Positions 5,171 to 8,525 of a stretch of 20,662 nt of DNA are shown here, one piece after another (positions within the stretch are counted from its first letter, which is position 1; the number at the start of each line of letters is the position of its first letter). The position numbers and the translations under genes are program-made. The stretch is from positions 1 to 20,662 of the IMG/VR virus record IMGVR_UViG_3300044675_000606; one strand, written 5' to 3'. The notes below the pieces were generated by a model that saw nothing but the letters and a program-made list of their open reading frames with translations, was not told the origin of the DNA and did no database searches. Source of the stretch: a virus.

Positions 5171-5429
5171 TCATCCTCTTTTGTAGGTCTTCAACGGCGG
5201 GTTGTCCACGCTTTTTCACTAAGTCGGATAAGGTTCTCTGCCACCATGCCCATGCTTCTGCTTTGCCCTCCTCCTTGGCTTTCTTCCTGAACCGTTTGAT
5301 CCAGTACCTCGCCTCCGTTTGGCGTAATGTCTCCTGTATCTCTAAGCGCTTGGTCAATGGCAGATTGGCTAAATTCTTCACCGTCTTTAAATCGGTCAAG
5401 GATTGAATTGGCGATTTGTCTGTGTTCAT
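5148..5429 (-). CDS. small basic phage protein, frame B of an overlapping pair
   Basis: A 93-residue frame. Residues 38-90 (EARYWIKRFRKKAKEEG, AWWQRTLSDLVKKRG, DLQKRMNDE) look like a real small phage protein family, with RYWxxRF, WWxxxLxDxxKxRG and LxxRMN. The first 35 residues look unlike that family and could be non-coding shadow. The ATG overlaps the methyltransferase stop as ATGA. No Shine-Dalgarno is at the right distance; the nearest GGAG is 15 nt away and better placed for the GTG at 5436. Either this is a separate coupled gene, or its C-terminal part is reached by a +1 shift from the frame starting at 5436. Confidence 0.6.
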   Translation of the reverse strand: MNTDKSPIQSLTDLKTVKNLANLPLTKRLEIQETLRQTEARYWIKRFRKKAKEEGKAEAWAWWQRTLSDLVKKRGQPAVEDLQKRMNDESSKN

Positions 5430-5436
5430 GATTCAC
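5191..5436 (-). CDS. small phage protein, frame A of an overlapping pair
   Basis: An 81-residue frame starting at a GTG (5436), with GGAG 8 nt upstream and the TAA of the 269-residue methyltransferase-overlapping gene directly before it. Residues 1-37 (EHRQIANSILDRFKDG, FSQSAIDQALRDTGDI) look like a genuine protein start, of the type GxxFSxxxIDxALxxTGD. From about residue 38 on, the sequence becomes Gly/Gln/Ser-rich and no longer protein-like, just where the other frame begins to look real. That suggests a frameshift join, two overlapping genes, or an assembly indel. The function is not known. Confidence 0.45.
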   Translation of the reverse strand: MNHEHRQIANSILDRFKDGEEFSQSAIDQALRDTGDITPNGGEVLDQTVQEESQGGGQSRSMGMVAENLIRLSEKAWTTRR

Positions 5437-6250
5437 TTAGGATTCTCCATGCTGTTGCTGCACATAGTGGGACTTGTCCATTTCCAATGGCTTTAAGTCT
5501 GTCCACCCTGGCGGCCACCCCATTAGCCACTCGACCCACTCGGGGTTCAGTGGCCCACCAACCTGTGCCGCTAGGGGTATCTCGTTCCTGCCGTACTCCG
5601 ATGGGTATCCCCTGTCTTTGTGCATCCGAGAAACCGGTGTGGGCCAAAGTCTTGGATTGTTCACTTGATCCACCAATCTGATTTGGATGGGTTGACCGTT
5701 CTTTCGATGATTCTGGCCCTGTTTGAGGAGTCCAGATGTCCCCCCCCCCCCAGTGTCGGGAGTTCGCCACAATCCACGTTCTGTCCCTTTGGTGCGTCGC
5801 CCCAACGTCGTATGCGCCCATAACAGTCCATCGCGAGTCATACCCGAGACAGGAAAGGTCTCCAAGCACTCGCCCGATTCCTCTATGAATGAGCATTGGG
5901 CTGTTTTCCACAAATACGAATCGTGGTCGAACTTCGCTAACCACCCGCGCCATGTGATACCACATTGAGGAACTTTCTCCGTCAAGTCCTGCGCCTCGGC
6001 CTGCGATTGAAATGTCTGTGCATGGAAAGCCCCCCGAAACAACGTCAACAATTCCTCGCCACGGGTTTCCGTCAAAGGTTTGTATGTCATCCCAAATCGG
6101 GAAAGGCGGGAGAAGACCGTCATTTTGTCGGGCGCACAATACGCTTGCTGGATAAGCTTTCCATTCGACTGCACAGACTGTTCGCCATCCAAGCAGTTTT
6201 GCGGCAAGTATTCCTCCACCAGCGCCTGCGAATAAAGCCAGCTCATTCAT
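5426..6250 (-). CDS. C5 cytosine-specific DNA methyltransferase
   Basis: A 274-residue protein with the full ordered motif set of C5-cytosine methyltransferases. These are SAM-binding LFAGAGGG (6-13), the catalytic Pro-Cys loop GGFPC with C77, VEN (114-116), QRDR (154-157), and GNGQVP (256-261) with a closing helix. It methylates carbon 5 of cytosine in a short target site, using SAM. The variable region between motif VIII and IX (about 165-230) is short and hydrophilic, giving a small target-recognition part. The likely role is protecting phage DNA from host restriction or marking it; no restriction partner is visible. A second complete frame (5437-6246) overlaps nearly all of it. Confidence 0.93.
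   Translation of the reverse strand: MNELALFAGAGGGILAAKLLGWRTVCAVEWKAYPASVLCARQNDGLLPPFPIWDDIQTFDGNPWRGIVDVVSGGFPCTDISIAGRGAGLDGESSSMWYHMARVVSEVRPRFVFVENSPMLIHRGIGRVLGDLSCLGYDSRWTVMGAYDVGATHQRDRTWIVANSRHWGGGDIWTPQTGPESSKERSTHPNQIGGSSEQSKTLAHTGFSDAQRQGIPIGVRQERDTPSGTGWWATEPRVGRVANGVAARVDRLKAIGNGQVPLCAATAWRILSES
5437..6246 (-). CDS. methyltransferase-overlapping protein with WLMGWP motif
   Basis: A 269-residue frame lying wholly inside the methyltransferase gene, in a different frame of the same strand. It looks like a real phage protein rather than a shadow. Segments include LYSQALVEEYLPQNCLDGEQ (4-21), APDKMTVFSRLSRFGMTYKPLT (38-59), WLAKFDHDSYLWKTAQ (102-117), LWPTP (200-204) and LNPEWVEWLMGWPPGWTDL (233-251). 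I recognise the series CLDGEQS, FGMTxxPLT, WRTPxA and LMGWPxGWTxL from stand-alone phage proteins often adjacent to cytosine methyltransferases; their function is unknown. Its ATG follows the upstream TGA directly, with GGAG 7 nt away. A regulator or partner of the methyltransferase is a guess. Confidence 0.75.
   Translation of the reverse strand: MSWLYSQALVEEYLPQNCLDGEQSVQSNGKLIQQAYCAPDKMTVFSRLSRFGMTYKPLTETRGEELLTLFRGAFHAQTFQSQAEAQDLTEKVPQCGITWRGWLAKFDHDSYLWKTAQCSFIEESGECLETFPVSGMTRDGLLWAHTTLGRRTKGTERGLWRTPDTGGGGTSGLLKQGQNHRKNGQPIQIRLVDQVNNPRLWPTPVSRMHKDRGYPSEYGRNEIPLAAQVGGPLNPEWVEWLMGWPPGWTDLKPLEMDKSHYVQQQHGES
5740..5751 (-). repeat. 12-base G homopolymer in the dual-coding region
   Basis: Twelve consecutive C on the plus strand (G in the coding sense). 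It encodes the W-G-G-G part of the methyltransferase (residues 167-170) and the GGGG part of the overlapping protein (about 166-169). Losing one G would carry methyltransferase translation into the frame of the overlapping protein. Gaining one would do the reverse. Confidence 0.95.
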
Positions 6251-7017
6251 TGTCTCCCTCTCAATAGTTTTAATTTTTGCAAAACCTCATTACTAGGTGG
6301 GACTGCCTTTTTGCTATCTTCATCTATTTTGACCAGCGCCGGGTCACGTTCTTGTTTGGATGGCACTGTGGTGGTCACAACATCAAACCTGTTAACCAGC
6401 TTCGGTTTGTCAGCAACCCATTCAGCTTTAAATGCCTGCCAGCCGCGCACACAGCATTCAGTCAATGCCTGTTCCAATGTCCAGCCAGCTTTGTTTGCTT
6501 CAGCAATAAGTCCATCAATGGCACGTTGGGTAATTGGTGCTTTCTTAGCTTTCCGCAGGATTTTGAAGTCATCCCAAACAGATTGGGAAACGCCGACAGG
6601 CGTAGCCACGACAGTGGCTTTTTCTTTTATTGGTTTATGGTTTATCGTTATTGGTTTATCGTTTATAGTTGCCTTAGCGATGGGTTGCGAGTCGGAAGCC
6701 ACTGGGTTCTTTTTGCGCCCACCAAGCCGACCATTTACCCTATTTTTCTCAGCCATTGCGTGATATTGGTCAATAACTGTTTCACATCGACCATGATGCC
6801 AACCCACTTCAGTTAGCTTGAACATATCTTGCAAAACAGATTTGACCACCTCGGTATCCAGACGCAAGCGCTTGGCAACCCACTGGGTATCCAATGGGAT
6901 TTGGTTTTCAGTGTCGTAATACATATCCAAAAGTCGGCGGTAGGCCAAATCTTCTTCGTTGGATAAATGTGCAGTGGCGGCTCGGTAGTCGCCAATATTG
7001 AATTGGTAATAATGCAT
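6247..7017 (-). CDS. DUF1376 (YdaU-type) phage replication protein
   Basis: A 256-residue protein. Residues 1-90 (MHYYQFNIGDYRAATAHLSN, LAYRRLLDMYYDTE, PLDTQWVAKRLRL) are a clear DUF1376 domain, found at the N-terminus of phage replication-initiation proteins. A linker follows with the heptad repeat TINDKPI/TINHKPI (117-130). Residues 147-200 (DDFKILRKAKKAPIT, GWTLEQALTECCVRGWQAFKAEW) form the helical domain common in such proteins. It probably opens the origin or loads a helicase. GAGG lies 7 nt upstream of the ATG. The gene follows a structured 108-nt leader and overlaps the methyltransferase start by ATGA. Confidence 0.85.
   Translation of the reverse strand: MHYYQFNIGDYRAATAHLSNEEDLAYRRLLDMYYDTENQIPLDTQWVAKRLRLDTEVVKSVLQDMFKLTEVGWHHGRCETVIDQYHAMAEKNRVNGRLGGRKKNPVASDSQPIAKATINDKPITINHKPIKEKATVVATPVGVSQSVWDDFKILRKAKKAPITQRAIDGLIAEANKAGWTLEQALTECCVRGWQAFKAEWVADKPKLVNRFDVVTTTVPSKQERDPALVKIDEDSKKAVPPSNEVLQKLKLLRGRQ
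6254..6262 (-). promoter_or_regulatory. shared ribosome-binding site for two overlapping starts
   Basis: The reverse strand reads GAGAGGGAG, then ACA, then ATGAATGAG. AGAGG lies 6 nt before the methyltransferase ATG (6250), and GGAG lies 7 nt before the ATG of the overlapping protein (6246). The extended purine run can therefore position a ribosome on either start. The TGA of the upstream replication gene (6249-6247) falls between the two ATGs, so re-initiation after termination could also serve both. Confidence 0.65.
6629..6670. repeat. two-copy 21-bp direct repeat inside the replication gene, candidate iterons
   Basis: 6629-6649 and 6650-6670 are adjacent 21-bp units that match at 19 of 21 positions. 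Each starts ATTGGTTTAT and contains a second GTTTAT. The stretch is AT-rich and encodes the TINDKPI/TINHKPI linker. Repeats of this kind within an initiator gene are where lambda and related phages place their origin. Two copies are few for an iteron array, so this is a candidate only. Confidence 0.5.
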
Positions 7018-7125
7018 TTTCAGACCTCAACAAGACCCTGAAAAAGAAACCTCGGCAGGAGGGGTCTGTTCTCTTTTCGGCGGGATAGCTACCCCCCGCC
7101 TAGCCGTGTCTCAAACAATGTTACA
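7018..7125 (-). promoter_or_regulatory. structured leader of the replication gene
   Basis: 108 nt without a gene. Going downstream in the transcript there is a GC hairpin (7100-7079, GGCGGG and CCCGCC arms, 10-nt loop). Then comes CAGACCC (7068-7062), which can pair either with GGGTCT (7038-7033) or with GGTCTG (7026-7021). The second pairing includes part of the Shine-Dalgarno before the ATG at 7017. No T-run follows the GC hairpin, so it is not an ordinary terminator. A translational switch is possible but unproven. Confidence 0.35.
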
Positions 7126-7275
7126 TCAATAACAGTTAGTGCTGCAATTGTTTCCAAAACAACAGGTCTGGCAAGTCACATAACGACCATTTGAATAATA
7201 TGAATGAGTCGAACAAGCTGCCCAAACCATTGTGGTGGATGCCGCAAACCAAACTGCTAAAAGTGCTTTTTTCAT
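7126..7275 (-). CDS. secreted small cysteine-rich protein (49 aa)
   Basis: A 49-residue protein. The N-terminus MKKALLAVWFAASTTMVWAA is a classic Sec signal peptide, with likely cleavage after VWA or VWAA. The mature part of about 29 residues holds seven cysteines (C21, C35, C38, C39, C44, C48 pattern: TCQTCCF, NNCSTNCY) and would be disulphide-bonded in the periplasm; by my count six or seven Cys are present. AGGAG lies 5 nt upstream of the ATG, and the start overlaps the repressor stop as ATGA. The function is unknown. A periplasmic host-interaction or exclusion role is inference. If C21 were a lipobox cysteine it could be lipidated, but the VWAA context fits signal peptidase I better. Confidence 0.75.
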   Translation of the reverse strand: MKKALLAVWFAASTTMVWAACSTHSYYSNGRYVTCQTCCFGNNCSTNCY

Positions 7276-7436
7276 GTTTTCTCCTGTAAAAACCATTCAG
7301 GGCGCAAGTCTTTCAACTGGCGCAGGCGTAGTTCAGGCACATTTTTCCATTGGCAAATTGCTGGCTTGGAAATGCCCAAAATCTTGGCAAGCTCACTCTG
7401 TGACCCTGCTAGTTTGATAAGTTCTTGTTTAGTCAT
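7272..7436 (-). CDS. Cro-like helix-turn-helix repressor (54 aa)
   Basis: A 54-residue protein. LIKLAGSQSELAKILGISKPAICQWKN (residues 6-32) is a helix-turn-helix of the Cro/YdaS type: SQSELAKILG (helix 2), ISKPAICQW (recognition helix). It continues with VPELRLRQLKDLRPEWF, typical of tiny Cro proteins. It is the first gene of the leftward early operon and most likely binds the dyads in 7437-7534, shutting its own and the rightward promoter. The ATG at 7436 is the first possible start (an in-frame TAA lies just upstream). It has no Shine-Dalgarno, and a -10 box lies 6 nt before it, suggesting a leaderless message. Confidence 0.85.
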   Translation of the reverse strand: MTKQELIKLAGSQSELAKILGISKPAICQWKNVPELRLRQLKDLRPEWFLQEKT

Positions 7437-8237: not shown

Positions 8238-8525
8238 ATGAAATACGCACTTCTACTTTTGGCCTTGGTGGGTTGCGCCAGCCAGCCCCCAGCACCTGTT
8301 ACCACCATTCGTTCTGAACCACCCGTAGTGGTAGCCAACACCACACAGGAACTGGTGATGGATAAACAAATCCAGCCAATGGGTCGCAATGAAGTTATTG
8401 ACGGGGTTAAGCAATGCGAGTCTTCAGGGCTTCGTGCTATCCCTATTTACGCCAAACGCAAGATCAATGGCTACACGGTGGAAACCGTTGTGGAAGTGAC
8501 TTGTGGCCCACGTTACGCATACTAA
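8238..8525 (+). CDS. small lipoprotein
   Basis: A 95-residue protein. MKYALLLLALVGC is a short signal peptide ending in a lipobox (LVGC), so C13 should be lipidated and the protein anchored to the outer or inner membrane of the host. The mature part begins with the proline-rich ASQPPAPVTT and ends with a segment containing two further Cys (KQCESSG, VEVTCGP) that may pair. AAGGAA precedes the ATG. Its early position, apart from the lysis cassette, makes an Rz1-like spanin role unlikely. Superinfection exclusion is plausible but inferred. Confidence 0.8.
   Translation: MKYALLLLALVGCASQPPAPVTTIRSEPPVVVANTTQELVMDKQIQPMGRNEVIDGVKQCESSGLRAIPIYAKRKINGYTVETVVEVTCGPRYAY

Follow-up and report, generated by a model that had tools for sequence, protein, structure and literature searches.

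Small, probably exported cysteine-rich proteins encoded by an optional gene cassette in phages of several virion lineages

Closest described systems

T4 Spackle (gp61.3) is a small periplasmic phage protein of 97 residues, with a cleaved signal peptide of 22 residues and a single disulfide (C29-C81), which binds gp5, a virion protein, at its lysozyme domain and is believed to protect infected cells from later T4-like phages (PMC7650644). T5 Llp is an early-expressed lipoprotein acting on FhuA at its periplasmic face (PMC9586334).

The DNA analyzed here is a viral stretch of 20,662 nucleotides (IMG/VR record IMGVR_UViG_3300044675_000606, positions 1 to 20,662), referred to as the window, and encodes a 49-residue protein, hereafter the mini-protein. 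Both Spackle and the mini-protein are small phage proteins with a signal peptide, a periplasmic location and disulfides (all three only predicted for the mini-protein), yet Spackle has 97 residues and one disulfide, whereas the mini-protein has 49 residues and three predicted disulfides. The likeness to Llp and Cor-type proteins lies in small size and export (predicted for the mini-protein); those proteins, however, are lipoproteins that jam an outer-membrane receptor, while a lipobox (the pattern [LVI][ASTVI][GAS]C) was found in none of the 141 distinct proteins of the mini-protein family. In addition, T5 llp adjoins a receptor-binding protein gene, whereas in the window the mini-protein gene adjoins Cro-like and DUF1376 genes instead. 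No similarity to Spackle was detected, with no PDB chain matching a profile of 68 members up to E 10 and no Pfam match better than E 0.035 among those members. Given the missing lipobox, the lack of a sequence match and the differing size, the mini-protein appears to join neither the Spackle nor the Llp family.

NCBIfam yielded weak matches, mostly to lipoprotein or signal-peptide-bearing models (best E 0.0024), including the PG1828 lipoproteins model in 9 of the 68 members, and none for the window protein itself. In PHROGs, phrog_27496 was matched by 4 of the 68 (E 0.0037). A preliminary description of the window, made from its letters alone, had stated that no family of known function was evident, and this holds in Pfam, NCBIfam and PDB, none of which gave a match better than E 0.002. 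No paper describing the family was found in the literature collection searched; a match of the motif to a coronavirus primer paper was rejected as chance. The family appears to be new as far as the searched libraries reach, with a functional kind that would resemble that of known exported proteins.

Gene, family and predicted fold

The features of the locus are as follows.

7272..7436, minus strand: Cro-like regulator gene (PF14549 P22_Cro, E 1e-10; phrog_409, E 1.6e-12)
7281..7285, minus strand: AGGAG, a ribosome-binding-like site by sequence, within the 3' end of the Cro-like gene
7126..7275, minus strand: mini-protein gene, 49 codons plus stop (stop codon 7126-7128), from translation and family conservation
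7219..7275, minus strand: predicted signal peptide, residues 1-19, with a predicted signal peptidase I cut between VWA and AC; faster evolution, no lipobox
7129..7218, minus strand: mature part, residues 20-49, a predicted three-stranded meander (AlphaFold models, paired gain of cysteines)
6247..7017, minus strand: DUF1376 / primosomal replication gene (PF07120, E 1.5e-22; phrog_6451, E 8.4e-34)

Translation of positions 7126-7275 on the minus strand gives MKKALLAVWFAASTTMVWA, the predicted signal peptide, followed by ACSTHSYYSNGRYVTCQTCCFGNNCSTNCY, the mature part, and a stop. The frame, strand and coordinates of the 49-residue product are thereby exactly those of the preliminary description, and its place behind an early regulator, as second gene of the leftward set, is borne out by the upstream Cro-like neighbor (PF14549), whose frame the mini-protein start overlaps by 4 nt. 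The leftward order is Cro-like gene, mini-protein gene and DUF1376 replication gene; the ERF and exonuclease genes of the window run rightward, across the control region. A consensus scan found no leftward sigma-70-like promoter before the Cro-like gene. Among the 79 loci that hold the 20 nt before the start, 72 present GGAG within them. The product is indeed rich in cysteine, as had been claimed, but the proportion given, about one in four mature residues, was too high: the 30 mature residues hold six, or one in five.

Of the 198 open reading frames of 30-70 aa in the window, ten have at least six cysteines, the mini-protein included. In 100 Markov-1 resamples, 0.55 frames per window (40-70 aa, ATG start, at least six cysteines after residue 19) were obtained, and the expectation falls to 0.01 per window when a crude signal-peptide test is added to the same resampled windows. 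Since cysteine-rich short frames are frequent by chance in this window, cysteine composition is insufficient proof of the gene. The decisive evidence is conservation, which, at the level of sequence, confirms the frame as real.

Homologues had been proposed as a check in phages and hosts, and the searches uncovered a phage family with a single locus in 84,980 species genomes. A first IMG/VR scan gave 89 relatives among 117 candidate stretches, 80 of which were kept; an alignment-based scan gave at least 568 among the 599 candidate stretches listed; and scans from divergent members gave 117 of 135 stretches in one case and at least 539 among the 600 listed in the other. The species-genome scan (one genome per species), which is sensitive to close relatives only, returned its one locus among 43 candidate stretches, and the neighbors there read like ERF, SSB and lysozyme (labels by reading sequences; locus L114). 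In GenBank phages, two Manatee Spring records match with equal length and 57% identity, and the frame in MW202462 has no annotated gene on its own strand. A GenBank match in MW202640 (H3, E 5), inside a long annotated CDS, was rejected as chance, plasmid matches were discounted given that every one had E 1 or worse, and an eight-cysteine query found no match in GenBank phages. Copy number is one in all 43 records; in G021 a second match lies at the opposite contig end.

Every one of the 141 distinct proteins has the pattern C-x13-C-x2-CC-x4-C-x3-C (the fourth loop being five residues long in three of them), a set selected by a pattern demanding six cysteines, which only 2 of 229 loci failed; the family search patterns themselves also favor conserved stretches. 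One miss, L071, is a relative truncated by the end of its contig, and the other, L116, is a chance match in GenBank. Two extra cysteines, at residues 27 and 32, occur both together in 48 of the 141 proteins and are both missing in 93, with one alone in none. Four of the 141 have one cysteine each in the signal part. The residue three before the first mature cysteine is W in 90, Y in 50 and A in one, and the net charge of the mature part, with His uncounted, is 0 in 55 and +1 in 86.

Selection was assessed on 50 distinct 49-residue proteins (1225 pairs), with medians taken over pairs with dS 0-1.5 (576 for the whole protein, 454 for the mature part, 699 for the signal peptide). The median dN/dS is 0.15 over the whole protein; the mature part has 0.09 and the signal peptide 0.37. 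Judged by these ratios, the mature part is under purifying selection. The signal-like N-terminus noted earlier is likewise supported, as a cut between VWA and AC is predicted and the N-terminus evolves faster than the mature part.

AlphaFold, given 67 rows, places strands at residues 19-28, 31-40 and 43-48, with mean pLDDT values of 85, 86 and 81 in blocks from residue 21 onward. With 20 eight-cysteine rows, strands are at 19-27, 30-39 and 42-47, which is the same register after a shift of one, the eight-cysteine numbering being shorter. Confidence in the models is moderate (pLDDT about 81-86 in the mature part; pTM 0.39 and 0.38). In the predicted register, the numbers of two facing residues add up to 59 in hairpin 1 and to 83 in hairpin 2, so that each cysteine lies opposite another (C21-C38, 27-32, C35-C48 and C39-C44), a pairing drawn from strand register and not from coordinates. 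Residues 27 and 32 border a two-residue NG-type turn at 29-30, and, counting from the turns, the four facing pairs would sit on non-hydrogen-bonded sites. The protein would probably have three disulfides here and four in the eight-cysteine subfamily.

When covariation is computed over all 138 sequences of equal length, two facing pairs stand near the top, 27-32 in first place and 34-49 in third; over the 91 six-cysteine sequences alone, no facing pair is in the top 20, and covariation there does not support the hairpins. Neither Foldseek against PDB (best E 0.95) nor VIA-align (best Z 3.2) gave a fold match, the matches being generic. In inhibitor cystine knots, the cysteine order is C-C-CC-C-C and the knotted bridges are I-IV, II-V and III-VI. 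The mini-protein has the same order of cysteines, yet its bridges, predicted from the model register only, are I-III, II-VI and IV-V.

An optional cassette in phages of several lineages

A scan with the Cro-like protein gave 105 relatives, of which 80 loci were kept. The mini-protein gene is behind cro in 27 of these and missing in 53, missing meaning that the six-cysteine pattern was not seen in the 600 nt after cro. Among the 53, a DUF1376-like start lies within 150 nt behind cro in 31, and something else is found in 22. In three loci without the gene (L297, L298 and L349), cro joins directly the flank that in the window trails the mini-protein stop codon, with few differences, and DUF1376 follows. 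For L297, 147 of 165 aligned flank columns are identical to the window, and DUF1376 presents 80% nucleotide identity over 600 nt. The flank behind the gene in another carrier, L285, is unlike that of the window. The AGGAG site falls in a stretch that differs in relatives without the gene.

The three direct joins of cro to the flank suggest the gene is gained or lost as one unit, which would also rewrite the last cro codons. This comparison of loci shows the mini-protein gene to be an optional cassette. The preliminary description had regarded absence of the frame or of the cysteines in close relatives as evidence against it. The cysteines are kept in 227 of 229 loci, while the frame is absent in 53 of 80 Cro-like loci, and this absence indicates an accessory gene, not an unreal one.

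An upstream frame is present in 220 of 227 loci, on the same strand in 197 of the 220. For 179 of these 197 loci the distance to that frame ranges from -4 to +20 nt, and in 79 the two frames overlap by 4 nt. These upstream frames belong to an SSB-like cluster (64), the Cro-like group (41), two clusters of 27 and 23, and others (42). Of four proteins scanned from the SSB-like cluster, three have SSB PHROG matches and the fourth has none; the upstream protein of L082, from another cluster, has no SSB PHROG match. RecT, ERF, resolvase and small-terminase-like genes are labeled nearby in single loci, and the labeled neighbors overall, with neighbors only partly labeled, are Cro-like, ERF, RecT, SSB-like, Holliday-resolvase and DUF1376. 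The early-type position proposed for the gene fits its Cro-like and replication or recombination neighbors, as far as gene content can tell, and early timing is inferred from this gene order. In L098 and L102 (a lineage III record), which have the same gene order, the gene lies between SSB-like and small-terminase-like genes; at that place in Methylophilales phage MEP301, the genes for SSB and the small terminase share a single base.

The carriers were compared over 23 longer records (32-54 kb), chosen as carriers and possibly incomplete. The mini-protein gene is in 23 of 23 by choice, and the next most frequent gene cluster is in 12 of 23. At least five virion lineages are present, differing in large-terminase clusters; the lineages were defined by blastp clustering, and PHROG labels were given to representatives alone. 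The virion types are as follows.

P22-like portal: G001 and others
Tape-measure protein: G008 and others
T7-like connector: G026 and others
Further types: that of G012 and that of G010
G018: stands apart
G027: without identified terminase

For 16 of the 23 records, the mini-protein gene closest in nucleotide sequence belongs to a different lineage; the count is 15 if lineages I and Ib, which have a terminase cluster in common, are merged. The best cross-lineage pairs have 97% identical mature proteins at dS 0.9 or saturated. Six- and eight-cysteine forms are both present within lineages II, III and IV.

No tyrosine integrase was found in 42 records. By this search, which covered tyrosine integrases alone, and by the species-genome scan, which reaches close relatives only, the carrier phages seem lytic, but some may be temperate. 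Lineage II has a large terminase 70.9% identical to its counterpart in Methylophilaceae phage P19250A, and between the lineage III connector and the MEP301 one the identity is 71.9%. No mini-protein was found in either phage. Given that the nearest named records are Manatee Spring and Methylophilales phages, the hosts are probably aquatic bacteria. P19250A encodes another small protein with a signal-like start near a recombinase gene (L278, 31145-31399, minus strand).

Putative function and alternative explanations

We tentatively favor the reading in which an exported, disulfide-stapled mini-protein binds a common host envelope component in the periplasm, most likely excluding later phages. 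What we infer, from early timing and export through disulfides and fold to a host target, is the following course. The pre-protein would appear early in infection, leave the cytoplasm by the Sec route and be cleaved by signal peptidase I to approximately 30 residues. The mature part would fold in the oxidizing periplasm as a three-stranded antiparallel meander, with each cysteine stapled to the one directly opposite, through three bridges here and four in the sister subfamily. It would then bind an envelope component that the hosts of several unrelated phages share, and this binding would most likely bar later phages from the infected cell (superinfection exclusion).

The near-constant mature part across unrelated virion lineages suggests that the target belongs to the host and is neither a phage-specific receptor nor a piece of the virion. 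For a protein that is probably secreted and stapled, non-essential, early-placed and nearly constant while virions change, a host envelope component is the simplest target. Exclusion is the best-precedented benefit, given T4 Spackle and T5 Llp, and exclusion of rival phages, already suggested in the preliminary description, is plausible by this analogy. Nevertheless, each of the cited exclusion proteins has one particular receptor or virion component as its target, whereas the mature mini-protein is nearly constant across lineages, and the presence of both cysteine forms within lineages II, III and IV would also speak against exclusion. The moderate model confidence, the missing fold match, the poor ranking of facing pairs among six-cysteine sequences and the failure of the promoter scan before the Cro-like gene likewise weigh against the favored reading.

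A stronger version, which we regard as doubtful, is that such proteins constitute a class of phage shields, in which a disulfide-laddered 30-mer, moving as a single-gene cassette among unrelated virulent lineages, would jam a conserved envelope component against many phages. If true, the presence of the mini-protein in at least five virion lineages would mark a shared weak point in the envelope of the hosts, and a broad exclusion factor independent of any one receptor would be at hand. A 30-residue stapled fold should be simple to produce and test.

It is possible, if short of probable, that the mini-protein takes over a host function with no exclusion involved, inhibiting or redirecting a conserved periplasmic process (envelope stress signaling, a protease, a transporter or pilus assembly) in aid of the infection and leaving later phages unaffected. 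Under this explanation too, a mature sequence that hardly changes over at least five virion lineages agrees with a target common to their hosts, and no other gene cluster occurs in more than 12 of the 23 records, so that no phage partner is evident. Its difficulty is the absence of the gene from 53 of 80 Cro-like loci, 31 of them with a DUF1376-like start directly behind cro, which indicates the gene is not essential.

Compared with exclusion or takeover of a host process, a lysis-timing factor, such as a periplasmic antiholin or endolysin regulator, is improbable. A small, probably exported, phage-borne protein would suit the role, and L077 has a frame reading like endolysin, four frames off and on the opposite strand; yet no lysis gene is among the labeled direct neighbors (most neighbors being unlabeled), and the late genes of carriers are unrelated.

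Slightly less credible still is a released peptide that harms other cells or competitors, a disulfide-stapled beta-hairpin of the tachyplesin and capitellacin kind. The spacing of capitellacin Cys5, 9, 14 and 18 (PMC7761999) is matched by C35, C39, C44 and C48 of the mini-protein, and this C-x3-C-x4-C-x3-C spacing of the C-terminal hairpin is present in 138 of 141 proteins, with a middle loop one residue longer in three. Those peptides, however, are cationic, whereas the mature charge is only 0 or +1 in 141 of 141 proteins, which makes an antimicrobial role unlikely. The mini-protein also differs in its extra strand, in a third or fourth predicted bridge and in being phage-encoded with a bacterial signal peptide, and an early-type gene position is odd for a released weapon.

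A cytoplasmic thiol- or metal-binding protein of the replication region, its hydrophobic N-terminus merely an anchor, is very improbable: the CxxCC motif and the replication and recombination genes labeled as neighbors would agree with it, but the number of mature cysteines changes by a pair only and the signal-like N-terminus evolves faster than the rest. Least credible is a secreted signal for phage-phage communication as in arbitrium systems, for which a signal peptide, the early regulator beside the gene in the window and weak matches to Phr and AimP models (E 0.0065 and 0.033, in one member each of 68) weigh little against a mature part that barely varies, tyrosine integrases in 0 of 42 records and a Cro-like group directly upstream in only 41 of 220 loci.

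Three other observations concern the window itself. Directly behind the mini-protein gene, positions 7079-7100 (minus strand) hold a hairpin, GGCGGG...CCCGCC. Relatives have stems altered in both halves (GGTGGG/CCCACC in L283; GGCAAGG/CCTTGCC in L349 and L288), and a stretch after the hairpin is well conserved in seven aligned sequences. The hairpin looks like a conserved RNA element ahead of the replication gene.

Two long frames on the same strand, 5426-6250 and 5437-6246 (minus strand), share approximately 800 nt. One matches PF00145 (E 1.6e-27) and phrog_363 (E 1.1e-64); the other has no Pfam family and matches phrog_1008 (E 3.7e-21) and phrog_26627, of unknown function (E 2.9e-14). These overlapping phage DNA methyltransferase-like frames present a possible case of dual coding.

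Finally, positions 8238-8525 (plus strand), in the opposite early set and before the ERF gene, encode a small lipoprotein-like protein beginning MKYALLLLALVGC, with weak matches to Rz-like spanin PHROGs only (best E 0.00049). This product is a separate candidate for an early exclusion lipoprotein.
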